From: Methylotenera oryzisoli
Lineage (GTDB): Bacteria; Pseudomonadota; Gammaproteobacteria; Burkholderiales; Methylophilaceae
Direction of reading: 5' to 3'
Assembly: GCF_004661485.1 (NCBI RefSeq)
Contig: NZ_PQVH01000008.1
Location: 248,001 to 312,000, forward strand
Length of the DNA stretch: 64,000 nt
Shown in pieces: positions 8,604-31,907 of the stretch. The position numbers were made by a program, and so were the translations under genes. The stretch's first letter is position 1. The number at the start of each line of letters is the position of its first letter. Below the pieces are notes generated by a model, which did no database searches, had not been told where the DNA came from, and saw only the letters and a program-made list of their open reading frames with translations.

Positions 8604-9397
8604 TAACGCCCAAAGGTGGCACTTACCACCTCGCTCAAAGCGACTGCAGTTTCTGCGTCATCGGTTAACGTTTCCACCAATGCTGCCTGACAGGCACGTA
8701 CTGGGTCATAACCATCTTTAATCAAGGTCGCTGCGTACACCAGCAGACGGGTACTGGCTACTTCTTCTAAATCATGATCACGCAAGGCACGAAATGCGCC
8801 AGCGATAGAAACCAACCGTTTTGCAGTCATGCTATCAATACCGGTTTCGCCCATCAGTATCGCCTCTTCCTGCGTTGCGCTAGGGAAATCAAACGTCAGC
8901 GATACAAAGCGCTGCCGCGTTGAAGGCTTCATTCCTTTTAAAAAGTTCTGATAACCAGGGTTATAAGAAACCACCAGCATAAACGCAGGTGGTGCCTGTA
9001 GCAGCTCACCAGTGCGGTCTATCGGCAGCATACGCCTGTCATCGGCCAGCGGATGCAGCACCACGGTCGTATCTTTTCGTGCCTCTACCACTTCATCCAG
9101 ATAGCAGATGCCGCCCTCACGCACCGCGCGAGTAAGCGGACCATCATTCCAGATGGTTTCGCCATCGCCAATCAGGTGTCGCCCCACCAAATCTGCCGCA
9201 GTCAAATCATCATGGCAGGCCACGGTATGTAACGGCAAACCAAGACGTGCAGCCATATGTGCAACAAAGCGTGTTTTACCACAGCCGGTGGGGCCCTTAA
9301 TTAACAGCGGCAGACGATTCTTCCACGCACGTTCAAACAGATCGCACTCATCACCGCTAGGCTCATAAAACGGGGTACTACTTGTTTGTGTTTCCAT
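8603..9397 (-). CDS. norQ: MoxR-family AAA+ ATPase NorQ
   Basis: A cytoplasmic ATPase partner of NorD in NO reductase maturation. It is 264 aa with Walker A GPTGCGKT at residues 35-42, Walker B-type GGICYLDEVVE, and a sensor segment ending VVSYNPGYQNF. CbbQ is a close relative, but the adjacent norD and norBCEF genes settle the name. It is transcribed with norD and lies 52 bases after norF. Confidence 0.94.
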   Translation of the reverse strand: METQTSSTPFYEPSGDECDLFERAWKNRLPLLIKGPTGCGKTRFVAHMAARLGLPLHTVACHDDLTAADLVGRHLIGDGETIWNDGPLTRAVREGGICYLDEVVEARKDTTVVLHPLADDRRMLPIDRTGELLQAPPAFMLVVSYNPGYQNFLKGMKPSTRQRFVSLTFDFPSATQEEAILMGETGIDSMTAKRLVSIAGAFRALRDHDLEEVASTRLLVYAATLIKDGYDPVRACQAALVETLTDDAETAVALSEVVSATFGR

Positions 9398-9449
9398 AAA
9401 GTCTTTCAGTATTCAGTTTGCTTTAGCGAACGCTCAAATAAGCCCCGCG

Positions 9450-9710
9450 TTACAATAAATAAGCAATGGCAACCATGCCACCTACCACCACAAAATAACC
9501 CATAATGATGCCGCGCCACAGCCAGCTTACATAGCGCAGCCCCATAAAATAATTAGCAATCAACTGGCCTTTGATAAAGGCGATTGCCAGTACACTCAAC
9601 ATCACGGCTTTGCCCTGCGCAACCTCTTCCCCGATAGCAAAGGTAAGCATGGTGAGCATAATTAGCACTAGCCAGATGCGTGTAGAAAAATGGTTGATTG
9701 GTTTATTCAT
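9450..9710 (-). CDS. norF: NorF-like small membrane protein (cytochrome oxidase subunit IV family)
   Basis: An 86-aa protein with three hydrophobic helices, of the COX4/CtaF-like family seen as NorF beside NorE. I chose the MNKPINH start at 9710 because it begins directly after the norE stop (9713). An upstream in-frame start would overlap norE by 61 bases. Likely an accessory for full NO reductase activity; biochemical function is not established. Confidence 0.85.
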   Translation of the reverse strand: MNKPINHFSTRIWLVLIMLTMLTFAIGEEVAQGKAVMLSVLAIAFIKGQLIANYFMGLRYVSWLWRGIIMGYFVVVGGMVAIAYLL

Positions 9711-9712
9711 GA

Positions 9713-10312
9713 TTAGTGGATGATATAAACCAGTGGGAAAAGTATGATCCATAGCAAATCCACCATATGCCAAAATGAAGCACCGGTCTCCACACCAAAA
9801 TGCTCAGCCGCTGTGTAGTCACCATTTCTTAACTTAAACACGATACATCCTAGAATAATCATGCCCATCAGCACATGCATCAGATGAAAAGACGTCAGCG
9901 TCAGGTAGTACATGTAAAAATCATTGGTTTCCAGCGTGATGCCTGCAGAGAACTTTTCGTTAAACTCCCACAGCTTGACTACTATAAACATAGCCCCCAA
10001 CGCCATTGCACCAAGCAGCCAGCGCGCAGACTGTCTAGCATCGTTCACTTTAATCGCAGCAACAGAACGTACAACAAAGTAACTGCTGGTAATCAAAATA
10101 ATGGTATTTAAGGTACCCAAGCCACGGTTCAATGTAAGCTGGGACGCATTAAAAACCTCCAGCTGATGGGCGCGTGCAAATGCATATACGATGAACATCA
10201 CGCCAAACACCAGCATTTCTGCAAGTATAAATATCCAGATAGCAAAGTCGCCGGGCAAATCTTCAGCCGGCAAAACCCCATCTTCATTCATCAATGCTGC
10301 ATTTGTATTCAT
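9713..10312 (-). CDS. norE: NorE-like cytochrome oxidase subunit III homologue
   Basis: An accessory membrane protein of the NO reductase cluster, about 199 aa with five membrane helices. COX3 motifs are visible, such as DFAIWIFILAEMLVFG near the start and SFHLMHVLMGM and SFWHMVDLLWI near the end. The start at 10312 gives the expected soluble N-terminus; a more upstream start would add 17 poorly fitting residues. It follows the hairpin at 10349-10377 after norB and is directly followed by norF. Confidence 0.9.
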   Translation of the reverse strand: MNTNAALMNEDGVLPAEDLPGDFAIWIFILAEMLVFGVMFIVYAFARAHQLEVFNASQLTLNRGLGTLNTIILITSSYFVVRSVAAIKVNDARQSARWLLGAMALGAMFIVVKLWEFNEKFSAGITLETNDFYMYYLTLTSFHLMHVLMGMIILGCIVFKLRNGDYTAAEHFGVETGASFWHMVDLLWIILFPLVYIIH

Positions 10313-10348
10313 GCGATGACCCTGTACGACAGATTGTTCAGTTAAACC

Positions 10349-10377
10349 AAAAGAAGGAGGCAAAGCCCCCTTCTTTT
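10349..10377 (-). terminator. Hairpin between norB and norE
   Basis: A 13-bp stem with one mismatch and a three-base loop: AAAAGAAGG-A-GGC pairs with GCC-C-CCTTCTTTT. Read on the - strand it ends in TTCTTTT, resembling an intrinsic terminator. It could end or attenuate the norCB transcript and so lower expression of norEFQD relative to the structural subunits. Confidence 0.7.
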
Positions 10378-10425
10378 GCCGTGCACTGTTGTAACAATAC
10401 GCTAGTAAAAAATCATTACAAAAGA

Positions 10426-11823
<1,398 letters not shown>

Positions 11824-12249
11824 TTAACCTTCGATATTTGGAGGCCAGTTATTGGTATTGATTTCTGAGGTATATTTCAGAAAATCCACCAAGTCATCCA
11901 GCTCTTTATCCGTGAAATTAAACTGCGGCATTTGTCTTCTACCAGGAATGCCGGTTGGCTGACCTTTTATCCATGCCTTAATAAAATCAGGCCCGCGCCG
12001 TTTGTACACATTACCCAGCTCCGGTGCGAAATAAGCACCCTCACCTAACAAAGTATGGCAACCGATACAGTTATTGGTCTCCCACAATTTTTTACCATGA
12101 ATCACTGACGCTGTTAGATTCTGGCTGTTATCACGTTTTGGCAGCTTCTGATTAGTATCAAACGTAAGCGCAAGAAATAGCAGGAAAAAAAACAGCGATC
12201 CCCCCATAAAAATATTACGCGCCATGGATTTAGTAAATCTTGTAGCCAT
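11824..12249 (-). CDS. norC: Nitric oxide reductase cytochrome c subunit NorC
   Basis: Membrane-anchored monohaem cytochrome c passing electrons to NorB. It is 141 aa with an N-terminal signal-anchor helix (about residues 12-30), the haem site CIGCH at 61-65 and the likely distal ligand Met107 (GRRQMPQF). First gene of the nor cluster; a strong GGAGG ribosome site precedes the ATG and a Dnr box lies at 12311-12324. Confidence 0.97.
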   Translation of the reverse strand: MATRFTKSMARNIFMGGSLFFFLLFLALTFDTNQKLPKRDNSQNLTASVIHGKKLWETNNCIGCHTLLGEGAYFAPELGNVYKRRGPDFIKAWIKGQPTGIPGRRQMPQFNFTDKELDDLVDFLKYTSEINTNNWPPNIEG

Positions 12250-12502: not shown

Positions 12503-15500
12503 ATGCAAATGAACGCTAAACCAACTAGCCAGACCTTACACAAAACTATTTTGTGGCTATTGACCGGCACGATAATGTTGGTTGGTTCTCTCATCACCTA
12601 TCAGCTATGGTCAAACGCCAGAGATGATAATTTACAAAAACTAAGCTCAGCCCTGGAAGACTCCGCAGACGTCACCGTTAGCAATCTTCAAGCACGCTTT
12701 AATGCAATCTTGGTCATTATGCGAGGTGTTAAAGGGTTTATTGACGGCTCAGATATAGTCAAGCCGAATGAATTCCATACCTATATAAAATCACTTAATT
12801 TAGGCGATAGATTTGGCGTGCGAGGAATCGCACTCGTCGAACTGATAGATAACGCGCGAAAAACTACGCATATTACAGATGTAAAAAACCGCGGCCTCAA
12901 CAATTATCAAATTAAGCCTGCGGGTGAGCGCCCGTATTACGCACCTATTACCTTAATTGAGCCTTTAGATGCAGCTAATACCAAAGTATTAGGCTTAGAT
13001 GTACTAACTTTACCTACTGCTTTAAAAGCGCTGGAGCAAGCAAGAGATGCCAACAATGTCCGCATCTCAAAACGCATGACACTTGGCCAGGATGCTGGGG
13101 AGAAAAATCAGCATTCATTTGTTATGTACTTGCCAATATATAAAAAACACACAGTCTTAAACAGCTTGGAAGCAAGACGCAATGCCATCATAGGCTGGGT
13201 CGATGTTCCCTTTCGCATGAATGATTTAATGAATGGGTTCAAAGGTGAAATTGACTCAGACGTCAGCATTAACATTTTTCAAGGAAGCGAAGCGACTGAA
13301 GAGTCGTTTTTATACAAGTCTGCACAGGAGTCAAATGATACTAATTACTCTACTCAAAGAGTGCTGACTCAGGCGGTATCAAGAGTGCTGGATGTGGGTG
13401 GCACCAAATGGACACTTCTGTTCCAGACGACACCCGCTTTTGAGGCGCGCATACTGCCCTATGGCAAACCTACACTAGTCGCCTTATTAGGTTCTACACT
13501 CACGATTTTATCTGCCTTTTTAGCATGGTTTTTATTAAGCAGCAGGCAACGTGCAGAAAATCGTTATCAAAAACTTTTCGACCAAGCGGGTGATGGTGTT
13601 TTAGTGCTCAATCACCAGCACCAATTTATTGCAGTCAATGTCGCTGCAGTCAACATGCTTGGTTATCAACATAGTGCACTGCTCAACATGCGGCTACCCG
13701 ATGTATTAGTCGGCAACGTGATCGGACACCCAGAATTCACCTCCAACATCATGTCAGACCACCCTACCAAAGGTGAATGGCAATATCGCCGCGGGGATGG
13801 CTCTCAATTTGTCGCAGAGGTGAGTTGCAGAAAGTTAGACAAGCATTATTACTTTGCCATCATCAGAGACTTAACTGAACGCAAGCTAGCTGAGAGCCGC
13901 ATTTCACATCTAACCCAACTGTACCAAGCTCTAAGTGAGGTGAATCAGGCGATTGTACGCATGGGTGATGATAATGAGCTATTCTCGATTGTTTGCCGTT
14001 GCTCAGTCAACTTTGGCGGTATGAAAATGGCTTGGGTCGGGCAACTAGACCCAGAGAGCCAGCAAATTTTACCGGTAGCCGTCCATGGTGATGGCATCGA
14101 GTATATGGATGGCCTGAATATTTCAGCCAATGGCAATCTCCCTGAGGGGCGAGGCCCGACAGGTACGGCCTTAAGAAATAATCAAATCATGATTATCAAC
14201 GACTTTCTAACGGATCCCAATACGATACTTTGGCGCGATAAGGCTAAGCGCTTTGGATGGGGTTCATCGGCTTGTTTTCCAATTCAGCGCGACCAAAAAC
14301 CGTTTGCAGTGCTCAATGTGTATCACGAAAGCGCCAACGCTTTTGACAGTGAAGCCATCGCACTACTGCAAGAAATGGCGAGTGACATTAGTTTTGCACT
14401 CGACAACTTTGACAGAGAGCAGAAAAAACAGAAGCTAATGGCAGACCTTGATTACGCTCACAAGCATATTAGTCAGATAGTGAACCTTAGTCCTGCTGTG
14501 ATTTACACACTAAAACTCAATGCGGCTGGTGTTTTTAGTACTGATTTCATGAGTGAAAACATTTACCAGATGACAGGATACGCCAAAGATGAGTGGTTAC
14601 AAGATGACTTCTGGCTTAAACATATACACACAGAAGACTTAACCGATGCCTTAGAGTCTCAGAAAACGTTGTTTGAAGCCGGGGTACTCAATCATCAATA
14701 TCGATTCAAACATGCTAACGGCAGCTATATCTGGATAGAAGACCACTTGATGTTAGCGCGGGATAGCAACGGCAAGCCAGTGGAAATTGTAGGTGCATGG
14801 CTTGATATTACCGAGCGGTTATCAGCTGAAGAAAAGTTACGTATCAATGCTAAGGTGTTTGAGTCTAGCCGTGACGGCATTGTCATTACCGACGAAAACA
14901 ATAAAATTATTTCAGTCAATAATGCATTTACTAAAATCACAGGCTACGAGCCTGAAGAAGCTATTGGCAATAACCCTCGCATGCTCGCTTCAGGCAATTT
15001 AGCAGAGTCTTTTTATCGTGCAATGTGGGAAAGCGTTAACATCGTAGGTTATTGGCAGGGGGAAGTCATTAATCATCGTAAAAATGGTGAGGTTTACACA
15101 CAATGGCTTTCTATCAGCACAATTAAAGATACAGACGGTAAAGTGACGCAGCATATTGGCATCATCACCGATATTTCAGAGCGAAAAATTGCAGAAGAGC
15201 GCATACAGTTCTTAAGTAACTTTGACCTACTCACCAACCTGCCCAATAAGAGCTTATTAAACGATAGAGTGACCTTGGCGCTCGCCGCTGCCAAACGCCA
15301 GAAGTCGACAGTAACGCTCATGTTTTTGGATCTTGACCGCTTTAAGCTGATTAATGAATCGCTTGGACCAACTATAGGCGACCGAGTAGTCAAAGAGCTT
15401 GCAGAGCGCTTGGTGAATTATATGCGCCCTGAAGACACGGTATGCCGCCAAGGTGGCGATGAGTTTATTTTATTGCTACCAAACACAGATGCAGAAGGCG

Positions 15501-16492
15501 CTGCCCATGTTGCAAAAAAATTACTCGATATTGTTGCTCAGCCTTTTAATTTTAACGGTCAAAAAATTGTACTGACAGCGAGTATCGGGATTGCAGCTTA
15601 CCCGCAAGATGGGGAAAATTTTGAACAATTATCCCAGTCAGCAGATGCCGCGCTGTATCGTGCAAAATATGAAGGCCGTAATAACTTTCAATTCTTTGCC
15701 CTTCAAATGCATGAGCAGGCGCACGACATTTTGTTACTCGAGAGCGAGTTGCGCAATGCAATAGAGCACCAAGAATTTTTACTTTATTACCAACCACAGT
15801 ACGATAGCAAAACATCTAAGATTGTTGGTTTAGAAGCACTTATACGCTGGCAACATCCAGAGCGAGGCATGGTTTCCCCAGCGCTGTTTATTCCGATTGC
15901 AGAAGAAAGTGGTTTAATTACCGAAATTGGCGACTGGGTATTACGTACTGCCGTGAATCAGCTTGCCACTTGGCAAGAAGCTGGCTTAGAAGCTGTACCC
16001 GTTGCGGTCAATCTATCTGTAGTACAGTTCCACCAAGACACACTTTACAGCAGCGTTTGCCAGATTCTAAGAGATACTAAAGTTGACCCCAGCATGCTGG
16101 AGCTAGAGCTGACTGAAGGTATTGCTATGGAAGACTCAGAACGCACATTGAATGTTCTGAATCAACTCAATAGCCTAGGCGTCAGACTCTCTATCGATGA
16201 TTTTGGTACGGGTTACTCTTCACTCAGCTATTTGAAAAAATTCAAAATTGATAAACTCAAGATTGATCAATCATTTGTACGCGGCATAGGTAGCCACCCT
16301 CAAGATGCAGCCATCATTACTGCGATTATCAGTATGGCAAAAAGCCTGAGTTTTAAAACCATTGCAGAAGGCGTAGAAACACAGGAACAACTTAATTTCT
16401 TAATCCAACATGGCTGCGATGAAATCCAAGGATATTATTTCAGCAAGCCCATTCCTAGCACTGAAGTAACTAAACTTCTAGCCAATAAATAA
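12503..16492 (+). CDS. CHASE-PAS-GAF-PAS-PAS-GGDEF-EAL sensory c-di-GMP enzyme
   Basis: A 1329-aa membrane sensor that may make and/or degrade cyclic di-GMP. TM1 is about residues 14-36, then a periplasmic CHASE domain (about 60-260) and TM2 (about 322-345). In the cytoplasm follow PAS (353-460), GAF (470-635), PAS (650-775), PAS with PAC (775-895), GGDEF (905-1070) and EAL (1080-1325). The GGDEF motif is intact at 984-988. The EAL motif is intact at 1111-1113, with DDFGTGYSSLSYL and IDQSFV also present, so both activities are possible. It is divergent from norC and followed after 34 bases by a TSUP transporter gene. The periplasmic ligand is unknown. Confidence 0.93.
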   Translation: MQMNAKPTSQTLHKTILWLLTGTIMLVGSLITYQLWSNARDDNLQKLSSALEDSADVTVSNLQARFNAILVIMRGVKGFIDGSDIVKPNEFHTYIKSLNLGDRFGVRGIALVELIDNARKTTHITDVKNRGLNNYQIKPAGERPYYAPITLIEPLDAANTKVLGLDVLTLPTALKALEQARDANNVRISKRMTLGQDAGEKNQHSFVMYLPIYKKHTVLNSLEARRNAIIGWVDVPFRMNDLMNGFKGEIDSDVSINIFQGSEATEESFLYKSAQESNDTNYSTQRVLTQAVSRVLDVGGTKWTLLFQTTPAFEARILPYGKPTLVALLGSTLTILSAFLAWFLLSSRQRAENRYQKLFDQAGDGVLVLNHQHQFIAVNVAAVNMLGYQHSALLNMRLPDVLVGNVIGHPEFTSNIMSDHPTKGEWQYRRGDGSQFVAEVSCRKLDKHYYFAIIRDLTERKLAESRISHLTQLYQALSEVNQAIVRMGDDNELFSIVCRCSVNFGGMKMAWVGQLDPESQQILPVAVHGDGIEYMDGLNISANGNLPEGRGPTGTALRNNQIMIINDFLTDPNTILWRDKAKRFGWGSSACFPIQRDQKPFAVLNVYHESANAFDSEAIALLQEMASDISFALDNFDREQKKQKLMADLDYAHKHISQIVNLSPAVIYTLKLNAAGVFSTDFMSENIYQMTGYAKDEWLQDDFWLKHIHTEDLTDALESQKTLFEAGVLNHQYRFKHANGSYIWIEDHLMLARDSNGKPVEIVGAWLDITERLSAEEKLRINAKVFESSRDGIVITDENNKIISVNNAFTKITGYEPEEAIGNNPRMLASGNLAESFYRAMWESVNIVGYWQGEVINHRKNGEVYTQWLSISTIKDTDGKVTQHIGIITDISERKIAEERIQFLSNFDLLTNLPNKSLLNDRVTLALAAAKRQKSTVTLMFLDLDRFKLINESLGPTIGDRVVKELAERLVNYMRPEDTVCRQGGDEFILLLPNTDAEGAAHVAKKLLDIVAQPFNFNGQKIVLTASIGIAAYPQDGENFEQLSQSADAALYRAKYEGRNNFQFFALQMHEQAHDILLLESELRNAIEHQEFLLYYQPQYDSKTSKIVGLEALIRWQHPERGMVSPALFIPIAEESGLITEIGDWVLRTAVNQLATWQEAGLEAVPVAVNLSVVQFHQDTLYSSVCQILRDTKVDPSMLELELTEGIAMEDSERTLNVLNQLNSLGVRLSIDDFGTGYSSLSYLKKFKIDKLKIDQSFVRGIGSHPQDAAIITAIISMAKSLSFKTIAEGVETQEQLNFLIQHGCDEIQGYYFSKPIPSTEVTKLLANK

Positions 16493-16526: not shown

Positions 16527-17363
16527 ATGAATTTTGATCTAATTTTAACTTTTTTGGCACTAGGTGCTTTTGTTGGTTTAGCTGCGGGCCTATTAGGTAT
16601 TGGCGGCGGCGGCGTGATGGTTCCAATGCTGACAGCTATATTTTTAAGCCAAAACGTACCTGCCGATCAAGTGGTACATTTAGCCTTGGGTACATCCATG
16701 GCATGCATTATGGTAACGTCTTTATCCAGCTTACGTGCTCACCATGCTAATGGTGCAGTGGTTTGGCCATTAGTTAAGCTCATGGTGCTAGGGGTGGTAT
16801 TAGGCACTTTCTCGGCCACATTTATTGCATCGATGATTAGCTCTAAAGTATTAGCCATATTTTTTGCTTGTTTCATGGGCTACGTGGCAATTCAAATGTT
16901 CTCAAATTCAAAGTCCACACAACACGTCAACAGCGCTGCGCACCATTCAATCAACAGAATTGAGCTCGTATTAGCGTCTATCGGCATAGGCTCCATCTCT
17001 GCCATTGTTTCTATCGGCGGCGGCTCAATTACCGTACCCTACCTTACCTGGCGCAAGGTTGATATCAAAAAAGCCATTGGCACTTCTGCGGCCATTGGTT
17101 TTCCGCTGTCAATTGCGGGCAGCGTTGGTTATCTGTTAAGCGGGTGGTCCCATGTAGCACCGATTCCGTTTACTTACGGCTTTATTAATTTACCTGCAGT
17201 TTTGGTTATCTCCATCACCAGTTTTTTTACTGCACCCATTGGAGCAAACCTCACGCAAAAGTTGCCGGTTGCTACGCTTAAAAAGATCTTTGCATTACTA
17301 CTGGCAACATTAAGCCTGAAAATGCTTTGGAACTTACAATTATTGCCCTGTTGCAATTTTTAA
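16527..17363 (+). CDS. TSUP (TauE/SafE) family permease
   Basis: A 278-aa membrane protein with about eight helices and the duplicated TSUP pattern. The first half has GLAAGLLGIGGGGVMVPML near residue 17 and the second SIGGGSITVPYL near residue 168. Members export sulfite, sulfoacetate or other small organosulfur anions; the substrate here cannot be read from sequence. It lies between the c-di-GMP enzyme gene and the redox locus, same strand, with short gaps. Confidence 0.88.
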   Translation: MNFDLILTFLALGAFVGLAAGLLGIGGGGVMVPMLTAIFLSQNVPADQVVHLALGTSMACIMVTSLSSLRAHHANGAVVWPLVKLMVLGVVLGTFSATFIASMISSKVLAIFFACFMGYVAIQMFSNSKSTQHVNSAAHHSINRIELVLASIGIGSISAIVSIGGGSITVPYLTWRKVDIKKAIGTSAAIGFPLSIAGSVGYLLSGWSHVAPIPFTYGFINLPAVLVISITSFFTAPIGANLTQKLPVATLKKIFALLLATLSLKMLWNLQLLPCCNF

Positions 17364-17430: not shown

Positions 17431-19905
17431 ATGCGCAATCACTTTGACGTCATTATTATCGGTGCGGGTCCCAGCGGCTTATCAGCAGCGGCACGTGCGG
17501 CTGAGCAAAAGCTTTCCTATCTGCTATTAGAAGCAACAGAAGCAGCCGCCAATACCATACGTAATTACCAGCGCCGAAAATTAGTCATGGCAGAGCCACG
17601 CGGCTTGCCATTACGTAGCCCGTTGCCGTTTGCGGCATCGCTGCGAGAGTCTGTACTCAACTCATGGGAAAGCGTGATTGCCGACTACAAAATCAACATT
17701 CGCTACAACTCAAAAGTTGTTGCAATCACCCGTGATTCAGAAAGCAAACGCCCAGAAGCATTAAAAGTTGAACTGGGTGACGGTAGCATATTTACTGCCG
17801 ACCATGTCATCTTAGCAATTGGCGTACAGGGCAACCTACGCAAACTGGAAATACCCGGTGGCGATTTACCGCAGGTACAGTATCAACTAGATGATCCAGA
17901 AGCTTACCAAAATGAAACGATCGTTGTCATTGGTGGTGGTGATACCGGCGTTGAAAATGCACTAGCGCTGACTGGGCGTAATCAAGTGATTGTATTAAAC
18001 CGTGCTGAAGACTTTAGCAATTGTAAGGAAAGCAACCTTACACAACTAACAGAGGCAAGGCAAAGAGGCGCGCTAGACTGGTTATTAGAAACACGTCCAC
18101 AATCGATTGAAGCCAATACCAAAGGCGAGTTTCCAGTGACATTGTTTGCGGAAACCCCCAAGGGCATAGAGCGTATTCCATGTCATCGGATTATTGCACG
18201 TCTTGGTGCACTCCCCTCTAGACCTTTGCTGGAAAGCTTCGGCGTCGCATTCCCTACCGCCGACTTAGCCGCCCTGCCCGTGCTGACCCCACGTTATGAA
18301 TCTAACGTGCCTGGCTTATACATTATTGGCGCACTTGCCGGTTACCCATTAATCAAACAGGGCATTAACCAAGGCTATGAAGTCATTGAGCATATTTTGG
18401 GCAACCCAGTTGAGGCCGCTGATACAGCACTACTACGCGAAAAATTTGCCAGTTTCTGCTCTGACCGTGGCATTGAAGATGTGCTGGATAAAATTCAGCG
18501 CAGTGTGCCTTTATTACGCCTACTTAACTCTTTGCAATTAAGAGAGCTGATTCTAGAAAGTAATATTTTATTGCCTGCAGCTGGCGACATTATCTTTGAA
18601 CGTAACGATTACAGCACCTCCTTCTTCTTTGTCATCGAAGGTGAGCTGGAAATGTTCATCGATGAAGACGATATAGCAGATGACTCATTCAAAAGCGGTG
18701 AGTTTTTTGGTGAAATGGGGCTATTGTCCGGCCGACGCAGAATTGCCACGGTAAGGGCCACAACCCAGAGCGCGCTGATTGAAACGCCACGACGCGTTAT
18801 ATTAAAACTGATCAACTCAGTGCAAGCAATGCGCAGAACGCTGGATGAAGTTGCAATCAAGCGCATCGTACATGCGTGCATTGGCCTTTCATTAAGTGAA
18901 GATGACCTCAACGACTTGGCATCACATGCGGTTATTAAACAATATGCAGCAGGTGAAGAGTTATTTCATGAAGGCGATGATGCAGATGGCCTTTACCTAA
19001 TCCGACGTGGCTCCGTTACCGTTTCGCGCATGATGACTGGCCGCGAGGTGGTTTTATTCTATGTAGCCGCCGGCAATTATGTGGGTGAAATGTCACTGAT
19101 TTCTGGTGAGCCGCGCTACGCGACGGTGCGAGCCGCCATTGCAACTGAGGCGATTTTAATTGATGTAGGACGCATGCAAGGCATCATCGCGCGCAATCCT
19201 GAAGTACGCGCATCATTAGACGCACGTTACTTACAACATCTGCAAGAGCAGGAAAAAAGACAGCAACTAGAAACCTCTTCAGACAGTAGCAGTGGCTTTT
19301 CAAATCAATCCGCACAGTCCAGCCTGATCTCCTTCTTGATCCAGCAAGGTGTAGGTGAAGCAACTGACGTTTTATTGATTGACGAATCACTCTGTGTGCG
19401 CTGTAACCACTGTGAGCAGGCATGTGCGGACACCCATGGCGGCGCAACAAGGCTAGACCGCGACACCGGCCCTATTTACGCCAACATTCGCGTCCCGACC
19501 TCATGCCGTCACTGTGAACACCCTCACTGCATGAAAGACTGCCCGCCAGATGCTATCCATCGTGCGCCGCATGGCGAAGTCTATATCGATGATAGCTGCA
19601 TTGGCTGTGGTAACTGTCAGCAAAACTGCCCATATGACGTGATTCAAATGGCCGTGATTCAAGATCAGCCAGAACAAAGCTTATGGCAAATGCTATTGGG
19701 GATTCAACCTAAACAGGTTGCCTCAACCAACAATACCAAAGTCGCGGTTAAATGTGACATGTGTAAAGACATTGCCGATGGGCCAGTATGCGTGCGTGCA
19801 TGCCCGGTTGGCGCAGCCTTACGGGTGAACCCTGAGCAGCTTTTAGGTTATGCAAGTAATAATGTCGCGGACGAACACCACATACTAGGGTTTGATGATG
19901 CATAG
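17431..19905 (+). CDS. FAD/NAD(P) oxidoreductase fused to two cNMP-binding domains and a 4x[4Fe-4S] ferredoxin
   Basis: An 824-aa cytoplasmic fusion. Residues 1-330 form a thioredoxin-reductase-like flavoprotein with FAD motif GAGPSG at 11-16 and an NAD(P) motif GGGDTG at 168-173, but without the redox CxxC of thioredoxin reductase. Two cyclic-nucleotide-binding domains follow (about 365-480 and 490-610). Each has a phosphate-binding-cassette-like segment: FGEMGLLSGRRRIATVRA near 427 and VGEMSLISGEPRYATVRA near 551. The C-terminus is a DmsB/HybA-type ferredoxin with 16 cysteines (655, 658, 661, 665; 692, 695, 700, 704; 723, 726, 729, 733; 775, 778, 787, 791). Likely transfers electrons between NAD(P)H and the membrane protein encoded 12 bases downstream. 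I do not recognise a characterised homologue. Confidence 0.85.
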   Translation: MRNHFDVIIIGAGPSGLSAAARAAEQKLSYLLLEATEAAANTIRNYQRRKLVMAEPRGLPLRSPLPFAASLRESVLNSWESVIADYKINIRYNSKVVAITRDSESKRPEALKVELGDGSIFTADHVILAIGVQGNLRKLEIPGGDLPQVQYQLDDPEAYQNETIVVIGGGDTGVENALALTGRNQVIVLNRAEDFSNCKESNLTQLTEARQRGALDWLLETRPQSIEANTKGEFPVTLFAETPKGIERIPCHRIIARLGALPSRPLLESFGVAFPTADLAALPVLTPRYESNVPGLYIIGALAGYPLIKQGINQGYEVIEHILGNPVEAADTALLREKFASFCSDRGIEDVLDKIQRSVPLLRLLNSLQLRELILESNILLPAAGDIIFERNDYSTSFFFVIEGELEMFIDEDDIADDSFKSGEFFGEMGLLSGRRRIATVRATTQSALIETPRRVILKLINSVQAMRRTLDEVAIKRIVHACIGLSLSEDDLNDLASHAVIKQYAAGEELFHEGDDADGLYLIRRGSVTVSRMMTGREVVLFYVAAGNYVGEMSLISGEPRYATVRAAIATEAILIDVGRMQGIIARNPEVRASLDARYLQHLQEQEKRQQLETSSDSSSGFSNQSAQSSLISFLIQQGVGEATDVLLIDESLCVRCNHCEQACADTHGGATRLDRDTGPIYANIRVPTSCRHCEHPHCMKDCPPDAIHRAPHGEVYIDDSCIGCGNCQQNCPYDVIQMAVIQDQPEQSLWQMLLGIQPKQVASTNNTKVAVKCDMCKDIADGPVCVRACPVGAALRVNPEQLLGYASNNVADEHHILGFDDA

Positions 19906-19917
19906 AGGGAATGCTTA

Positions 19918-20748
19918 ATGCAACAAAGCAATATGTTCGACTATAAAAACTATCGCTATTTCAAAATAGCGGTCGTGGTTATCTTAATTGCATTAGCTGC
20001 CTTTCTGTTTTTTGAACCCGCGGTTGGTCATTACGGCGGTAGCTGGTTGGGTTATACCTTAGGTACGATATCTGCATGCATGGTGTTATGGATGACATGG
20101 TACGGCATCAGAAAAAGGCGCTACCGTGGCACTGGAGCCACTCAAGGCTGGCTATCTGCCCATATTTATCTAGGTACTGCACTCACCTTTATTGTCACCT
20201 TGCACAGCGGCTTTAACTTTGGGCTAAATATTCACACCTTAGCCTACGCCCTACTGCTGATCGTGGTGGCCAGCGGTTTCTTTGGTAATTACACCTACAT
20301 GATTTACCCGCGAAAAATGACAGAAAACATGGGTGAAGACAGCTTGGATGGCCTGCTGTTAAGAATTGCAGAGGCTGATAAGCTGGCACGCAAGATTGCA
20401 CTGCTGATGCCGGACGAAATTAACAATACCGTACTGCGTGCATGCCGTGAGACCTCCATTGGCCTGAGCTTAATTGATCAACTAAGCGGTTTCCAGCCTA
20501 ACTGTCCTTCTGCAAAAGCCGTGCAAGAGCTCACGATACTAGGTAAAGACTTAGCAGTAGAGCAACGTAAATTGTACCGCGAGCTATATTCGATTATGGT
20601 GCGCCGCGAATCATTAGTTAGACGCGCACGGCAAGACTTGATGTACCGCGCCAGGCTTGGTATCTGGCTATACTTGCATGTGCCGTTTACCGTAGGTTTA
20701 CTAGTCGCCATGCTCGCACATATCGTTGCAGTATTTGTGTATTGGTAA
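19918..20748 (+). CDS. Putative dihaem cytochrome b membrane protein
   Basis: A 276-aa membrane protein with about five helices: roughly residues 16-34, 42-62, 80-98, 104-124 and 250-274. Between helices 4 and 5 lies a soluble, partly helical cytoplasmic domain. Two helices each carry a pair of histidines 14 apart: His82/His96 and His254/His268. HX13H pairs on two helices are the classic arrangement for two transmembrane b haems, as in cytochrome bc1; His106 is extra. This would carry electrons across the membrane between the ferredoxin-bearing flavoprotein upstream and the decahaem protein downstream. Not recognised as a named family; the haem assignment is inference from motif spacing. Confidence 0.65.
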   Translation: MQQSNMFDYKNYRYFKIAVVVILIALAAFLFFEPAVGHYGGSWLGYTLGTISACMVLWMTWYGIRKRRYRGTGATQGWLSAHIYLGTALTFIVTLHSGFNFGLNIHTLAYALLLIVVASGFFGNYTYMIYPRKMTENMGEDSLDGLLLRIAEADKLARKIALLMPDEINNTVLRACRETSIGLSLIDQLSGFQPNCPSAKAVQELTILGKDLAVEQRKLYRELYSIMVRRESLVRRARQDLMYRARLGIWLYLHVPFTVGLLVAMLAHIVAVFVYW

Positions 20749-20836
20749 TGGCAAACTTAACACTACCCATCTAAATGCATTTGAAATAACAAAAATAACG
20801 CTGGGCAAAGCAAAAGCAGATGAATAGAACCTCTTT

Positions 20837-22483
20837 ATGATTAATTGTTTGTTAATAAAAATCACAACTAACTCGCGCGGGCTACCTGTACGCAATTACC
20901 GTACTATCCATGCAACAGAGTTAATGATTGGCCGTGGCGCAGAGTGCACAATTCACCTTGCAGATCCTCGCATTGCCATGCATCACGCTGTGATTAAAGA
21001 GTTAGAAGATGGCCATATCTACGTTGTCAGCCTGAACGGTGAAGTTGAGGTTGAGGGTGCGATACTGCAAAACGTCAAGCTCACGCCCGGCAAGCAAATC
21101 ATGATAGGCCCATACCAGCTCAATGTAGAGCCTGCGCCACCTGATGTTAATTTATCAATATCGCTCACGCTCACGCAGCCGTTACCTGATGACTATCAGG
21201 ACCTGAAAGCACGCACGCACGACCCATTACCCAACGCATTTAAATTCAAATGGCGTTTATCCATGTGGCTAGCGGCACTGATTGCCTTGACGTTTTTGCT
21301 ACTGCCGCTCGCGCAAAACTTAATTCCACCATTGCAAACATCGATGTCCACCCTCCCTTTCGGCTTTGACCGCATATGGAGCCCAGGCCGTATTTCAACC
21401 GCACATAGACACTTCGGCTCGCAATGCTTTAACTGCCATCAGGCACCGCTCAAAAAAGTATCAGATCAAGCCTGCGTCCACTGCCATCAGGACACTGCCC
21501 CTCATATTGCAGACCCAGAACTGCAAAAGCGATCACTAAAAGCTGCACACCGTTTTATTGGCAGCATGCGCTGTGCAGAGTGTCATCAAGAGCATAAGGC
21601 ACCACACCCACTGGCACGCCAAGATAACAATATGTGCATTAAATGTCATGGCGCCATTAGAACGATAGACCGAGATACCAAACTACCCAATATCCGTGAC
21701 TTTGAAAAACAGCACCCTGATTTCAAGCTAAGCTTTAAAACCGGGCCAAACGCCAAAGATGTTGTGCGCATTCCACAAGCAGAAAAAGCTAAACTCATCG
21801 AGAACTCAGGATTAAAATTCCCGCACAATCAACACGTTGGCAAAGTACAAGGCCCAAACGGGATTTGGGATGTACGTGAGCTTGCCTGCACCAGCTGCCA
21901 TCAGGCTGAAGGTAAAGAAATGCGCTTTAAAGCGCTCTCTTACAAAAACAACTGTAGCACTTGCCATACCAGTGAGCTGCAAATTGGGCCTAAAGACAAC
22001 AAACTGACACTACCACACGGTGATGAGCAGAATATGTTCAATTCCCTCAAGCTATACGCGCCAAAAGAGTTTGACCGCTATTCAGATCAGCTAAAAAATA
22101 ATGGCTGCGCATATTGCCATGCAATTCAAGATGCCCAGCCAGGCGACAAAACACCTTGGCAGACGATACCTTTACGCCTTAACAATGACTGGCTCAGTAA
22201 GGCTCAGTTTAACCATGCGGCACACAGAACACAGGAATGTACCAGCTGTCACAAAGTAGCGGAATCAATCAGCAGTGCAGATGTGGCTATCCCTGACCGT
22301 CAGTCATGCTTACTCTGTCACTCGGGCAACACACAAAAGCACAAGCGCATTGCAAGTAGCTGCATGTCATGCCATACCTTCCATAATGCACACCAAGGTT
22401 ATGACTTAATTACCGGCGCCAAGGTTGACTCCAAAGACATTGACCTCTTGAACGCATTGCCTAACGGCGCCAAGCAGCCGTAG
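20837..22483 (+). CDS. FHA domain - transmembrane helix - decahaem cytochrome c
   Basis: A 548-aa signal-anchor protein joining cytosolic signalling to periplasmic electron transfer. The N-terminal FHA domain (about residues 28-95) has the GR motif at 32-33, His50 and an NG pair. However, the serine of the canonical S-x-x-H is Ala47 (AMHH). A single helix lies at about 141-163. The rest contains ten CxxCH haem sites, from CFNCH at 197-201 to CMSCH at 509-513, plus many extra histidines suited to bis-His ligation. It follows the cytochrome b gene by 88 bases. Probable function is accepting or donating electrons on the periplasmic side; partner and direction are unknown. Confidence 0.88.
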   Translation: MINCLLIKITTNSRGLPVRNYRTIHATELMIGRGAECTIHLADPRIAMHHAVIKELEDGHIYVVSLNGEVEVEGAILQNVKLTPGKQIMIGPYQLNVEPAPPDVNLSISLTLTQPLPDDYQDLKARTHDPLPNAFKFKWRLSMWLAALIALTFLLLPLAQNLIPPLQTSMSTLPFGFDRIWSPGRISTAHRHFGSQCFNCHQAPLKKVSDQACVHCHQDTAPHIADPELQKRSLKAAHRFIGSMRCAECHQEHKAPHPLARQDNNMCIKCHGAIRTIDRDTKLPNIRDFEKQHPDFKLSFKTGPNAKDVVRIPQAEKAKLIENSGLKFPHNQHVGKVQGPNGIWDVRELACTSCHQAEGKEMRFKALSYKNNCSTCHTSELQIGPKDNKLTLPHGDEQNMFNSLKLYAPKEFDRYSDQLKNNGCAYCHAIQDAQPGDKTPWQTIPLRLNNDWLSKAQFNHAAHRTQECTSCHKVAESISSADVAIPDRQSCLLCHSGNTQKHKRIASSCMSCHTFHNAHQGYDLITGAKVDSKDIDLLNALPNGAKQP

Positions 22484-27699: not shown

Positions 27700-28521
27700 C
27701 TAGTTGTAAACCGAATGCGCACCCTGTTGCACTTGAAGCTGCTTCAGTTTAGTTGAAGGCACATTTGCCAACAAAGCCACCGCCTGAGCCCTGCGTCCAA
27801 TATTTAATTTCTGGAAAATTCTTTTCAGATGGCTTTTCACTGTATTTTGGCTAATACTCAATATCATGCCAATTTCCTGATTGGTTTTACCAGCTTTAAT
27901 CCAGCTAATCACCTCAATCTCGCGCTCACTCAAACTTGACAAGTTTACGCCATCGGCCACTGCCAGCACGTCCAACTGCTCAAGTGGTTTAATTTTACGC
28001 AAAATATAATCTATATGCGGCATGATAAAATCCATCATTTGCACATTGATTTCTAGCTTATATTCTTTACTAAAGAATACATATAAACACTCCTCGCCGC
28101 TTCTTTGGTTATTTACGCCATAAACAAGGAGTGAGTTTATCTCAAGCAACTGGTCAGGAAATACTGTTTTGATTTTCTGAAAGATTACGTTTTGACTCAC
28201 CGCATTGATGAGAAAACAATCACAGCCAGATGCAATCCAATATGTGTATAAATCACCTAAAAACTCACTTACACGATCTGAAGCATCAATAATGGCTGGG
28301 GTTCTTAGATCTTTTAGGTTAGAGGCCGCATCATAATGTAACTGGCCATCCTGCTGTTGTCTAAGGTCACCCCAGGCAGTAAGCAGCATGTCATGTGGAA
28401 TTAGCTCAGCCACGCTATTTTGTAACCACACAAAATAATCCAAGTGAGTCTTAATCTGATGCGAACGCTGAATAACAGCCGTCGCTACGTTTACATATTG
28501 ATTGATTGATTCTTTTTTCAT
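27700..28521 (-). CDS. epsA: EpsA-like LuxR-family transcriptional regulator
   Basis: A 273-aa regulator with an uncharacterised sensor-like N-terminal region (about 1-195) and a C-terminal LuxR/GerE helix-turn-helix. The HTH has LSEREIEVISWIKAGKTNQE and QNTVKSHLKRIFQKLN. The layout matches the EpsA regulators associated with exosortase/PEP-CTERM exopolysaccharide loci, known from a methylotroph. I chose the ATG at 28521 because AGGTG precedes it; an upstream ATG at 28554 lacks a ribosome site. The large polysaccharide locus starts 1.7 kb away and is a plausible target, though a separate EPS operon elsewhere is equally possible. Confidence 0.78.
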   Translation of the reverse strand: MKKESINQYVNVATAVIQRSHQIKTHLDYFVWLQNSVAELIPHDMLLTAWGDLRQQQDGQLHYDAASNLKDLRTPAIIDASDRVSEFLGDLYTYWIASGCDCFLINAVSQNVIFQKIKTVFPDQLLEINSLLVYGVNNQRSGEECLYVFFSKEYKLEINVQMMDFIMPHIDYILRKIKPLEQLDVLAVADGVNLSSLSEREIEVISWIKAGKTNQEIGMILSISQNTVKSHLKRIFQKLNIGRRAQAVALLANVPSTKLKQLQVQQGAHSVYN

Positions 28522-28735
28522 GATTTGGCACCTATTCATGGGCATTTTGCTCATGTTAATAAGATTGCAAATTAGATGCCAAGAATCAAACCATTAAAAA
28601 TCAATAAGTTACAAAGAAAATATCTTTAAAAGCAGTAAGTGTTGTTATGATGCCAACTCTAGTGTCAAAATCACAACACATTTAGCGCAAAAAGGGTGAA
28701 TGCGGGTGAATGAAAGCAACGTCTAAAATATGACA

Positions 28736-29278
28736 CTAGGTTTGCAATGCATAAATTGCCGGTAAATTACGCCACCAACCATAAACATCCATGCCATAGC
28801 CAAAAACATATTCGTTTGGCACCTCAAGGCCTACAAAATCCGCCTTTATCGGCTTTACATGATCAAGTTTTTTCTCAATCAGCACGGCGGTAAGCACGCG
28901 GGCAGCTCCCAGCATCAAACATTTATCTTGAATCGCCTTTAATGTGATGCCTTCGTCGAGAATATCGTCTAACAAAAGTACAGTACGGCCAGACAAGTCC
29001 AACTTAGGTAGCGCTTTCCATTCCAGCATTTTTCCCACCGTTTTATTTTGATATCTGCTGGCATGCACGTAATCAAGCTCAAGTGGAAAGCTCAGTTGGG
29101 TGAGTAACTGCCCAGAAAACACCACGCCACCACCCATGACACAAATCACTACAGGGCTTGTGGCTGCCAATGTGTTAGTAATTTCATTCGCCATCGTGGC
29201 AATTGCAGCTTCCACAACTTCTTTTGTGTGAATGATGTTTGATTGCGCTAAGAGCTGCTGGGGATGCAATGTTTCCAA
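28736..29278 (-). CDS. hpt: Hypoxanthine-guanine phosphoribosyltransferase
   Basis: Purine salvage enzyme joining hypoxanthine or guanine to PRPP in the cytoplasm. It is 180 aa with the PRPP-binding motif VLLLDDILDEGITL at about residues 98-111, the upstream VICVMGGGVVFSGQL loop, and the C-terminal FVGLEVPNEYVFGYGMD segment that binds the purine. Monocistronic here, between the epsA-like gene and the polysaccharide locus. Confidence 0.93.
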   Translation of the reverse strand: METLHPQQLLAQSNIIHTKEVVEAAIATMANEITNTLAATSPVVICVMGGGVVFSGQLLTQLSFPLELDYVHASRYQNKTVGKMLEWKALPKLDLSGRTVLLLDDILDEGITLKAIQDKCLMLGAARVLTAVLIEKKLDHVKPIKADFVGLEVPNEYVFGYGMDVYGWWRNLPAIYALQT

Positions 29279-29417
29279 TTGTCGATTAACCCGTAAAAAT
29301 TACAATAAAAGAAAAGACTAAAAGCCGTAAATATGCTTCATACCGCTCAACATTCAAGCAAGCATTGAGTGTGCTTCAGTGTATTAAGATGCAGCGTAAG
29401 TCATCTTACTCACAGTG

Positions 29418-31304
29418 TTAATGCACAGTGATATGCTGTGCGGATGTAGGTATATGTGCATCAACGCTACTGGACACTTGCGGGCTATACTCTTCTACCC
29501 AGCCAGATAACTCAAGCTTCATTTGAGCCTCATGACTACCATGCAAGCCTTCAATCCACACCAGCAAATTACTTACCCAGCTCAAATTAGCAGTTCTGGC
29601 TTGTGCAATTCGTAATTTTTCATGTGGCGTTGGCATGGTATGCTCATCATCGGCTAGTAATTCCTCATACAGTTTCTCACCTGGCCGCAACCCAACATAC
29701 TCGATTTTAATCTCATCGGCACTAAATCCAGATAACCTAATCATATCCAACGCTAAATCTGCAATCTTAACTGGCTCACCCATATCTAATACAAAAATCT
29801 CCCCACCTTTACCCATCAATCCGGCCTGCATCACTAACTGCGCGGCCTCTGGGATCGACATGAAATAACGGGTAATTTCCGGATGCGTAATTGTGATTGG
29901 GCCACCCTTAGCAATCTGTTCCCGAAACTTAGGAATCACACTACCACTGCTGCCTAATACGTTACCAAAACGCACGATCACAAAGCGCGTGCCCTTATCC
30001 CCTTGCAAACCCTGACACACCATTTCAGCCAAACGCTTACTTGCGCCCATCACGTTGGTTGGGTTCACCGCTTTATCGGTAGAAATTAAAACAAACTTAG
30101 CAACACCATTGTCTTTACAAGCTTTGGCAATCGTATGTGTGCCAATTACGTTGTTAGACAAGGCCTCCCAAACATTACCATTTTCCATCATCGGCACATG
30201 CTTATAGGCCGCAGCATGGAACACAACCGATGGCTGATACTGCGCTAATATGTGGTTCATTTGAACGCTATTTTTAACATCAGTAGTTAGGTAAATCAAT
30301 CTGGTGGGTAAACGTAATGGACTCAACTCCTGTTCTAGCTGATAGAGTGAGAATTCAGAAATATCGATACAAACCAATACATTAGGTTGATACTTTACAA
30401 TCTGGCGGCACAGTTCAGAGCCAATAGAACCACCAGCGCCACTCACCATGACAACCTTTTGATCAATCAGCATCTGCAAGCCTGAGCTATCAAGTTTCAC
30501 GGCATCACGACCAAGCAAATCTTCCACGTCTACCTTGCGAATTTGCGAAACACTGACCTTACCGCTCATCAAATCATCAATCGCGGGAACTGTCATCACC
30601 TCCAGTTCAAGTGCATTTGCCAGCTCAATGGCCTCTCTACGCTTTTGGTGATGCACTGATGGCATTGCAACAATGACATACTTAACGCTTAAATACCTGC
30701 TTACTGATGCTAGCTGCGCTATTGTGCCTCTAACTTTTACACCAAATATTTCACGGCCTTGCATGGTTAAATCATCATCTAACAACGCCACAACTCTCCA
30801 TTGCGTGCTACGAGCCAAGTCTTTTACCAATGCGATGGCAGCCTCACCGGCACCTAACACAATCACGGGCTCTCCTTGCTTTAGAGTCATACCATACAGC
30901 AAATGCTCTTTCCAAGCGCGGTAAGCAAAGCGGCTTCCGCCCATGAACAATATTAATAATAGTGGATCTAGCACTAACACCGAACGCGGGATCACAACAT
31001 CGGTTTTGAGCATAAAAAAGAATGCGGCCAACAGCACAGCGGCAGAGCTTACTGCTAAGAAGATACGCTTTAAGTCAGCAACACTGGCAAAGCGCCAAAC
31101 ACCACGATACAAGCCAAAGCCAATAAAAACGCCAACTTGCAACACAACCACCCACCCTAGAGTGAGCAACATTTCCGATGCAAAATCAGCAGGAACTGAA
31201 AAATTAAAGCGCAACAAATAAGCAACAACCCATGCGAATGCGGCTGCCACAATATCGTGAAATATCGCTAAAATAGTACGCGGATTTGTCATTGATTTTT
31301 TCAT
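29418..31304 (-). CDS. CapD/WbpM-family UDP-sugar 4,6-dehydratase
   Basis: Inner-membrane nucleotide-sugar enzyme, likely converting UDP-GlcNAc to a 4-keto-6-deoxy sugar for O-antigen or capsule. It is 628 aa. Four N-terminal membrane helices occupy about 1-125, then a first Rossmann domain (VIVLGAGEAA near 147) and a second catalytic SDR domain (VMVSGAGGSIGSELCR near 281). The active-site region is STDKAVNPTNVMGASK, where Met replaces the usual Tyr, as in WbpM/FlaA1-type enzymes. As in many O-antigen loci it closes the operon, after an initiating transferase gene. Confidence 0.92.
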   Translation of the reverse strand: MKKSMTNPRTILAIFHDIVAAAFAWVVAYLLRFNFSVPADFASEMLLTLGWVVVLQVGVFIGFGLYRGVWRFASVADLKRIFLAVSSAAVLLAAFFFMLKTDVVIPRSVLVLDPLLLILFMGGSRFAYRAWKEHLLYGMTLKQGEPVIVLGAGEAAIALVKDLARSTQWRVVALLDDDLTMQGREIFGVKVRGTIAQLASVSRYLSVKYVIVAMPSVHHQKRREAIELANALELEVMTVPAIDDLMSGKVSVSQIRKVDVEDLLGRDAVKLDSSGLQMLIDQKVVMVSGAGGSIGSELCRQIVKYQPNVLVCIDISEFSLYQLEQELSPLRLPTRLIYLTTDVKNSVQMNHILAQYQPSVVFHAAAYKHVPMMENGNVWEALSNNVIGTHTIAKACKDNGVAKFVLISTDKAVNPTNVMGASKRLAEMVCQGLQGDKGTRFVIVRFGNVLGSSGSVIPKFREQIAKGGPITITHPEITRYFMSIPEAAQLVMQAGLMGKGGEIFVLDMGEPVKIADLALDMIRLSGFSADEIKIEYVGLRPGEKLYEELLADDEHTMPTPHEKLRIAQARTANLSWVSNLLVWIEGLHGSHEAQMKLELSGWVEEYSPQVSSSVDAHIPTSAQHITVH

Positions 31305-31346
31305 TGATTAATTAATGTAACGCACACTTCCATGTGCCCTGCCATT

Positions 31347-31907
31347 CTAATGCTGAATGCCATCTCTTCTTAAAACTTTTACAAAAGTTAAAACAATAAT
31401 TTTCAGATCAAACCACAATGATTGCCTCTGCATATAAACCACATCTAAATTCACTTTATCAGGAATCGGCAATTCATCCCGTCCGTTTATTTGTGCCCAA
31501 CCAGTTAAGCCTGGTACTAGTGCATCCACACCATGCTGAGTACGTAAAGCGATTAAATCCTCTTGATTAAACAATGCAGGACGTGGCCCCACAAAGCTCA
31601 TATCCCCTTTCATAATACTCAGTAGTTGTGGTAACTCATCCAAACTAGATTTTCTTAAAAAAGAACCAATTGGGGTCAAAAACTGCTGGGGATTGTTAAG
31701 TAAGTGTGTAGCAACCGCTGGTGTATCAACCCTCATAGAGCGAAACTTAGGCATTTTAAAAATAACATTGTGGCGCCCTACCCGATCAGACCAATATAAA
31801 GCAGGGCCTTTTGAAGTAGCTCGCACCATTACCCAAACAACAAAAAATGGTAAAGACAAAATCAATGCTGCGATTAACGCTAAACATAAATCAAATAAAC
31901 GTTTCAT
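31347..31907 (-). CDS. Initiating sugar-phosphate transferase (PglC/WbpL-like role)
   Basis: Transfers a sugar 1-phosphate from a nucleotide sugar to undecaprenyl phosphate, the first step of glycan assembly. It is 186 aa, a minimal monotopic PGT of the bacterial sugar transferase family. One N-terminal membrane helix covers about 5-27. The motifs KMPKFRSMRV, SSLDELPQL with its catalytic D-E pair, GDMSFVGPRP and GLTGWAQINGR are all present. Located between an epimerase and the dehydratase gene, so the sugar is probably an N-acetyl-6-deoxyhexosamine, by inference. Confidence 0.92.
   Translation of the reverse strand: MKRLFDLCLALIAALILSLPFFVVWVMVRATSKGPALYWSDRVGRHNVIFKMPKFRSMRVDTPAVATHLLNNPQQFLTPIGSFLRKSSLDELPQLLSIMKGDMSFVGPRPALFNQEDLIALRTQHGVDALVPGLTGWAQINGRDELPIPDKVNLDVVYMQRQSLWFDLKIIVLTFVKVLRRDGIQH

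Follow-up and report, generated by a model that had tools for sequence, protein, structure and literature searches.

The genes considered here lie in a 64,000-nucleotide stretch of Methylotenera oryzisoli DNA (contig NZ_PQVH01000008.1, positions 248,001 to 312,000 of the forward strand), hereafter called the window. Three open reading frames (ORFs), named P1, P2 and P3, follow each other in that order on one strand with intergenic gaps of 12 and 88 bases, and the order, strand and gaps given in an initial annotation of this DNA agreed with an ORF check of the window. They encode a flavoprotein with cyclic nucleotide monophosphate (cNMP)-binding domains and a ferredoxin region, a membrane protein with paired histidines, and a forkhead-associated (FHA) protein with ten c-type haem motifs (Table 1). 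The composition, conservation and linkage of this trio were observed directly, and the trio is a real conserved system of which no characterised member was found. It probably constitutes one inner-membrane electron exporter, regulated by cyclic nucleotides, which leads from reduced nicotinamide adenine dinucleotide (phosphate), NAD(P)H, to the periplasm.

Table 1. Position of the three genes, of their domains and of the upstream genes in the window (aa, amino acids; TM, transmembrane; FAD, flavin adenine dinucleotide)
Feature	Position	Strand	Description
P1	17431..19905	+	824 aa; NAD(P)H/FAD reductase (YpdA/TrxR-like), two cyclic-nucleotide-binding domains, ferredoxin region for four [4Fe-4S] (predicted)
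FAD/NAD(P)-binding region of P1	17443..18375	+	aa 5-315
cNMP-binding domain 1 of P1	18580..18816	+	Glu428, Arg437 invariant (53/53)
cNMP-binding domain 2 of P1	18937..19197	+	Glu553, Arg562 invariant (53/53)
HycB/HydN-like ferredoxin region of P1	19372..19818	+	16 Cys
P2	19918..20748	+	276 aa; five-TM protein; W78-x3-H82-x13-H96, S119-G120-x2-G123, W250-x3-H254-x13-H268; large helical loop 126-250 (predicted cytoplasmic)
P3	20837..22483	+	548 aa; FHA domain, one TM helix, ten-haem c-type cytochrome region
FHA domain of P3	20927..21109	+	aa 31-91; phospho-threonine pocket degenerate
Single TM helix of P3	21257..21313	+	aa 141-159
Ten CXXCH motifs of P3	21425..22375	+	aa 197-513
GGDEF/EAL-type sensor	12503-16492	+	1329 aa; read by eye; upstream of the trio
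TauE/SafE transporter	16527-17363	+	Pfam; directly upstream of P1

P1 passes the Pfam cut-offs for Pyr_redox_3/2, for cNMP_binding in two stretches and for 4Fe-4S domains. Among solved proteins, its N-terminus matches YpdA/TrxR, its tandem cNMP region the regulatory domains of PKG and PKA, and its C-terminus HycB-type ferredoxins. The ferredoxin cysteines (655, 658, 661, 665, 692, 695, 700, 704, 723, 726, 729, 733, 775, 778, 787 and 791) are invariant (16/16) in an alignment of 53 P1 sequences, and the same holds for the GE...R signatures of both cNMP domains, whose Glu and Arg we take to be the phosphate-binding residues of the cassette. The initial description of P1 as a flavoprotein with two cNMP domains and 16 ferredoxin cysteines was thus correct. 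Its FAD/NAD(P) region contains no CXXC pair and therefore no TrxR-type disulfide active site. Two more specific identities were rejected, namely YpdA bacillithiol-disulfide reductase (TIGR04018; 111.4 bits against a cut-off of 339.9) and AegA (63 bits against 1003). The own genome holds one full-length P1 and three partial domain matches.

In P2, the motif W-x3-H-x13-H occurs twice (histidines 82/96 and 254/268). H82, H96, H254, H268, both tryptophans and the SGxxG residues are invariant in 44 of 44 P2 sequences, which bears out the annotated HX13H pairs, and P2 is expected to bind two b haems. An AlphaFold2 model (mean predicted local distance difference test 85.5; predicted template modelling score 0.73) has long helices at 13-31, 43-66, 74-97, 105-138 and 214-275, fitting five TM helices, and the HX13H histidines are located on the modelled helices 74-97 and 214-275. 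Loops 63-80 and 126-250 are rich in Lys and Arg; loops 37-46 and 97-108 are free of Lys, Arg, Asp and Glu. According to the positive-inside rule, the former two should be cytoplasmic, which would place H82/H254 near the cytoplasm and H96/H268 near the periplasm. No Pfam family matched P2 above the cut-off, a cytochrome b561-type match remaining below it, and the ferric reductase/NOX family PF01794 gave no Pfam match at E 0.1. One P2 match was obtained in the own genome at E 0.001.

P3 combines an FHA domain above the Pfam cut-off with one hydrophobic stretch (141-159) and ten CXXCH motifs starting between residues 197 and 509, as had been annotated. The FHA domain would be cytoplasmic and the ten-haem region periplasmic. 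Among 44 P3 sequences, the Cys and His of motifs 1-8 are invariant and their counterparts in motifs 9 and 10 hardly vary; the number of CXXCH motifs is ten in 36 sequences, nine in 7 and eight in 1. The phospho-threonine pocket of FHA domains presumably consists of a conserved Arg, a Ser and Asn-Gly. Arg33 is present in 44/44 sequences, but the expected Ser at 47 is kept in just 6/44, Asn67 in 13/44 and Gly68 in 14/44, so that phospho-threonine reading is unlikely, and the phospho-signal control once proposed for the FHA domain finds no support. The domain is possibly a docking part instead. P3 was rejected as a decahaem cytochrome of the MtrA/DmsE type (TIGR03508; 19.1 bits against a cut-off of 192.2).

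Across Alpha- and Gamma/Betaproteobacteria, the trio is conserved as a unit. A P1 peptide pattern matched 465 stretches of a species-level genome collection. A relative is encoded by 411 of these, and the best 80 of the 411 correspond to 79 loci. Thirty-five of the 79 (L035-L069) are closest to the window, with P1 identities of 73-93%, and the closest named loci among these best 80 belong to Methylotenera, including M. mobilis 13 at 93%. The features of P1, P2 and P3 are not due to chance, because aligned relatives that share 26-95% identity with the window proteins retain them; the records concerned are titled Alpha-, Beta- and Gammaproteobacteria. In 67/79 loci the three genes stand side by side in this order, and a contig end intervenes in 4/79; the homologues are therefore not scattered. 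Another eight loci, all titled Betaproteobacteria, Burkholderiales or Comamonadaceae, are without P2 and P3 in the fetched DNA, and their P1 adjoins a set of outer-membrane-type genes (see below). As P2 is present elsewhere in all eight genomes, with a P3-like multihaem gene directly beside it in each case, the unit has been split there, not lost.

Whole-genome searches used one protein for P2, alignments for P1 and P3, and different E-value thresholds. Of 274 class genomes, 15 contain P1 (threshold E 1e-100). Exactly these 15 have P2 at E 4e-39 or lower, and 14 among them have P3 (threshold E 1e-40). The next P2 match after these 15 was at 2e-13. In the P1 carrier without a P3 match (G229), P2 is positioned at base 190 of a contig. 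P1 occurs in 15/398 genomes of the phylum and, the own genome counted, in 16/100 of the family, including 11/11 of the own genus. In the phylum sample, the trio is found at 14 of 15 non-own P1 places. The exception, L209:3968-11425, is a second P1 copy without P2 or P3 in the fetched DNA, and an ORF for a FIST-domain class III cyclase lies about 2 kb from it. A single ORF encodes P1 fused to P2 in two genomes that belong to the same genus (L210, 1118 aa; L214, 1123 aa); residues 1-793 of the L210 protein correspond to P1 at 51% identity and residues 807-1118 to P2 at 39%. This natural fusion argues for a docking of P1 on P2 at the cytoplasmic face.

The contiguity of the genes, their co-occurrence across the class, the invariant ligands and the two fusion ORFs all support the earlier proposal that the trio connects the NAD(P)H pool to the periplasm. 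For the cofactors, the order and direction of electron transfer, the gating and the acceptor, we infer the following. NAD(P)H would reduce the FAD of P1, from which electrons would pass to the four [4Fe-4S] clusters of the same protein and on to the cytoplasmic-side b haem of P2 (H82/H254). They would then cross the membrane to the periplasmic-side haem (H96/H268) and reach the decahaem domain of P3, held at the membrane by its TM helix, whose haems would deliver them to periplasmic carriers. The tandem cNMP domains, placed between flavin and ferredoxin, would regulate this flow upon binding of cyclic AMP or cyclic GMP, for which class III cyclases, encoded nearby in a number of relatives, could be the source. 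The flow is most likely outward, because the transfer from NAD(P)H (about -320 mV) to c haems is redox-downhill and runs along the membrane potential.

Cyclic-nucleotide control of P1, as claimed initially, is plausible in view of the invariant cassette residues, the cyclase content of the host and the clustering of cyclases around the trio elsewhere. In the own genome, a class III cyclase matched strongly (E 3e-64), and class I cyclases gave no match. Class III cyclases are present in 30/31 other trio carriers tested versus 5/14 control genomes. Distances were evaluated in these 31 carriers and the own genome, i.e., 32 of 44 known carriers; the trio spans of the phylum genomes were approximated from P1, and in a few cases rows that were fragments of one ORF were combined. 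The distance between the trio and a class III cyclase is 25 kb or less in 14/32 genomes versus 2.3 expected by position alone, 25 kb being one of four spans (5, 10, 15 and 25 kb) that was picked once the distances were seen, and 5 kb or less in 5/32 versus 0.63 expected. The tail probability of this proximity overstates the independence of the genomes. The 14 genomes span 11 of 19 families in our tally, so that kinship does not account for all of the proximity. Several near-trio cyclases are CHASE2-cyclases, assigned by Pfam for L185 and L186 and, for the others, by a profile of our own that was built from four sequences for the locus scan. The same profile had no match in 44 loci of P2's weak relatives, which is a partial control. 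In L218, L219, L220 and L223 the cyclase is part of a row of genes that also encode an LVIVD cytochrome, a barrel-type and an HbpS-like protein, and in L226 a cyclase is found with HbpS beside P2-P3.

These proteins belong to the outer-membrane-type set, of which at least one gene is located near P1 in 26/79 loci. Its members are an HbpS-like protein, a barrel-type protein of 600-800 aa and a ten-haem LVIVD cytochrome of about 1250 aa; in addition, there are c554-like tetrahaem proteins. No Pfam family was found for the barrel-type protein; its last residue is Tyr or Phe in 16/16 complete copies, and a terminal Tyr or Phe is typical of outer-membrane barrels. The set is unevenly distributed: it occurs in 0/37 of the loci L035-L071 (mostly titled Methylotenera), in 0/7 of the Gallionella type and in 26/35 of the others. 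The LVIVD cytochrome was found in 5/23 whole genomes searched; the own genome, which was searched too, gave no match. HbpS-like, barrel-type, ten-haem LVIVD and c554-like genes stand together at L077:522-7998 and L104:13059-18397, and possibly they form a new porin-cytochrome set. In relatives with the barrel-type protein, the ten-haem LVIVD cytochrome and c554, the electron line may continue as far as the cell surface, and its end point in Methylotenera and Gallionella appears to be the periplasm. A gene for a DUF1924 single-haem cytochrome, assigned by Pfam on the L083 copy, lies near the trio in 8/79 loci, mostly of Gallionella (L063, L070, L073, L074, L079, L082, L083 and L085). DUF1924 proteins are, as we assume, the oxygen- or nitric oxide-binding SHP, and this cytochrome is a possible electron acceptor. 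At L136, a locus of the gammaproteobacterial class, ccmF and a ccmH/cycH-type gene are also present.

Besides the late choice of the 25 kb span, several observations weigh against a regulated exporter. The fold search with P2 returned no match in the PDB at E 0.001 or better. Several of the 14 genomes with a near cyclase share family and gene order, a cyclase was detected in the DNA around P1 (up to 8 kb on each side) in only 3/79 loci (L092, L094, a weak match, and L101), and in the own genome and five further Methylotenera the nearest cyclase lies 36 to 464 kb from the trio. The outer-membrane set was likewise not found in the own genome and these five.

A different function is suggested by the relation of P2 to PCC3, a porin-cytochrome complex that is predicted only. 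In the main text of He et al. (2017, PMC5566968), its inner-membrane protein is described with five TM helices, two WX3HX13H motifs and SGXXG, and an exchange with the quinone pool is proposed. The weak relatives of P2 mostly adjoin genes for 21-24-haem and further large cytochromes, which is the PCC3 layout. Thirty proteins were classed as PCC3-type by two criteria alone, the motif and a neighbour with 15 or more haems. P2 is homologous to these proteins by profile comparison (hhalign probability 99.4, E 7e-22, 258 columns). By analogy, P2 could be a quinone-active cytochrome b of a conduit carrying electrons inward from periplasmic or extracellular donors such as Fe(II) to the quinone pool. 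In favour of it, the quinone model has been published for inner-membrane proteins of PCC3 and PCC4 with the same two HX13H motifs (PMC5566968, main text), and Gallionella is among the trio carriers. Published expression of PCC3 genes is mixed: in Sideroxydans CL21 the inner-membrane gene of one copy is up with iron oxidation (PMC12442390), which points to inward flow in that relative and thus away from an exporter, but in Sideroxydans ES-1 the PCC3 genes are down on Fe(II) (PMC8788666). The ES-1 response speaks against the quinone link, and so does a flavo-ferredoxin protein: its gene is linked to that of the P2 family member in the trio group and in the PCC3-type group, and two genomes encode it as one ORF with P2. 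A divergent flavo-ferredoxin gene resembling those of L132 and L134 lies within 6 kb in 21/30 PCC3-type loci, two of which (L132 and L134) supplied the query flavoproteins; the L132 protein has ferredoxin and FAD/NAD(P) domains. The nine loci without such a gene within 6 kb count the other way, L143 and L161 among them offering less than 1.5 kb and L175 less than 5 kb of upstream DNA. Taken together, the quinone-linked conduit seems unlikely for the trio.

Two further observations concern these PCC3-type loci. A gene for an ankyrin-repeat protein of about 670 aa stands beside the flavo-ferredoxin gene in L132, L134 and most of L145-L171 (by Pfam in two, by similarity in the others). At L133:9407-11032, the flavoprotein gene is split into two ORFs, possibly by a frameshift or an assembly error.

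Alternatively, the trio could be a redox sensor which reports the periplasmic redox state to cyclic-nucleotide signaling or to a partner of the FHA domain. Two signaling-type domain families in three proteins fit this idea, as do the linked cyclases of some relatives and the occasional GGDEF/EAL-type gene next to a trio. On the other hand, a sensor would need far fewer centres than the ten c haems, two b haems and four Fe-S clusters predicted for the trio, and a barrel-type, HbpS-like or further multihaem gene adjoins 26/79 loci; such a role is quite improbable. An inward flow in which periplasmic electrons make NAD(P)H for assimilation is more improbable still: all components are reversible in principle and Gallionella are lithoautotrophs, but electrons would need to be lifted to a potential of about -320 mV and moved against the membrane potential as well, and the host, a methylotroph, makes NAD(P)H from formaldehyde.

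In the window, the trio is preceded on its own strand by the GGDEF/EAL-type sensor, identified by eye, and the TauE/SafE gene; the two gaps measure 34 and 67 bases. An Mqo gene starts 39 bases downstream of the trio. A GGDEF/EAL-type gene is likewise upstream of the trio in L083 and L100. No further multihaem gene was found among the window ORFs between 12000 and 28000. A nitric-oxide-reductase-like set (8603-12249 on the minus strand and 6094-6777 on the plus strand) comprises a cytochrome c, a COX1-type subunit, a COX3-type protein and a CbbQ/NirQ/NorQ-type AAA protein; it is adjoined by a CRP-type regulator and lies about 5 kb from the trio in this species. On the minus strand at 27700-31907, the XrtB/PEP-CTERM-associated regulator EpsA scored above the cut-off and is followed by exopolysaccharide-type sugar transferase matches below it.

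How new is the trio? A search of part of the openly accessible literature, without supplements, gave no recognisable description of it. The initial statement that no such characterised system was known stood in that none was found; it has to be qualified in that the membrane part is related to the predicted PCC3 family (PMC5566968) and the FHA-decahaem protein is probably the one that PMC10734462 lists and does not comment on. The latter paper mentions once in its main text a cluster 403, 'Forkhead-associated protein', with 10 haem motifs in 27/87 genomes of iron-oxidising bacteria (FeOB), and P3 is probably of this kind. Multihaem genes accompanied by other inner-membrane proteins are also described in the main text of PMC5566968, and for most of these proteins it gives no significant homology to PCC3. 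Its clusters of 'Other multiheme cytochrome c' and inner-membrane protein combine a five-TM protein with two HX13H motifs, a multihaem protein and mostly another redox protein. These clusters and cluster 403 probably include Gallionella members of the trio family; the sections covered describe for them no flavoprotein, cNMP domains, fusion or cyclase linkage. Ferredoxin and thioredoxin reductase are not mentioned in the main text of PMC5566968, nor flavoprotein, oxidoreductase or ferredoxin in that of PMC12442390, and FHA and cyclic-nucleotide terms are absent from the available text of PMC13322032. Putative novel porin-cytochrome genes in Methylotenera, among others, appear in the text of PMC6344600.

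The closest known system is PCC3, whose layout with five TM helices and two HX13H motifs was already published (PMC5566968), the homology of P2 to PCC3-type proteins being added here by the profile comparison. P2 shares with PCC3 its five TM helices, both WX3HX13H motifs, SGXXG and an adjoining multihaem cytochrome gene, and a flavo-ferredoxin gene lies nearby in most PCC3-type loci. In contrast, P1 carries two cNMP domains and 16 ferredoxin cysteines, and P3 is an FHA-TM protein with ten haem motifs versus 21-27 in the periplasmic PCC3 protein (PMC10734462, main text). Membership of the trio in PCC3 is excluded, because PCC3 is defined by a porin and giant cytochromes and the window has no porin or extracellular cytochrome gene, the neighbours of the trio being TauE/SafE and Mqo.

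Known extracellular electron routes are mostly quinol-fed and controlled at the level of transcription. If the proposed function is true, NAD(P)H feeds multihaem cytochromes directly under second-messenger control, which would alter current ideas on the powering and switching of electron export. The trio also offers PCC3-type conduits a testable electron donor and a predicted direction of flow, and it suggests a way in which reducing power might be vented by methylotrophs, iron bacteria and some alphaproteobacteria. Tentatively, one may go further and regard the trio as a ligand-gated wire, in which cNMP binding directly opens or closes the flow from NAD(P)H to the periplasm or cell surface, an outside-sensing CHASE2-type cyclase closes the loop, and PCC3-type conduits are NAD(P)H-driven exporters as well and not quinone-linked iron oxidases; this wider scheme is possible but doubtful.

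Outside the porin-cytochrome field, AegA and HydN/HycB resemble P1, in which a HydN-like ferredoxin region is joined to a pyridine-nucleotide reductase; P1 differs from AegA by its C-terminal ferredoxin region and the two cNMP domains in between. The proposed way of working is that of the NADPH oxidase/ferric reductase and STEAP proteins, which combine cytoplasmic NAD(P)H-FAD with two stacked b haems on helices 3 and 5 and an acceptor outside. In P2, two HX13H motifs and modelled helices are present, the haems are predicted, and the fold search gave no significant match. Unlike in NADPH oxidase and STEAP, the flavoprotein of the trio is a separate YpdA/TrxR-like protein with a ferredoxin region, and the acceptor would be a dedicated decahaem protein.

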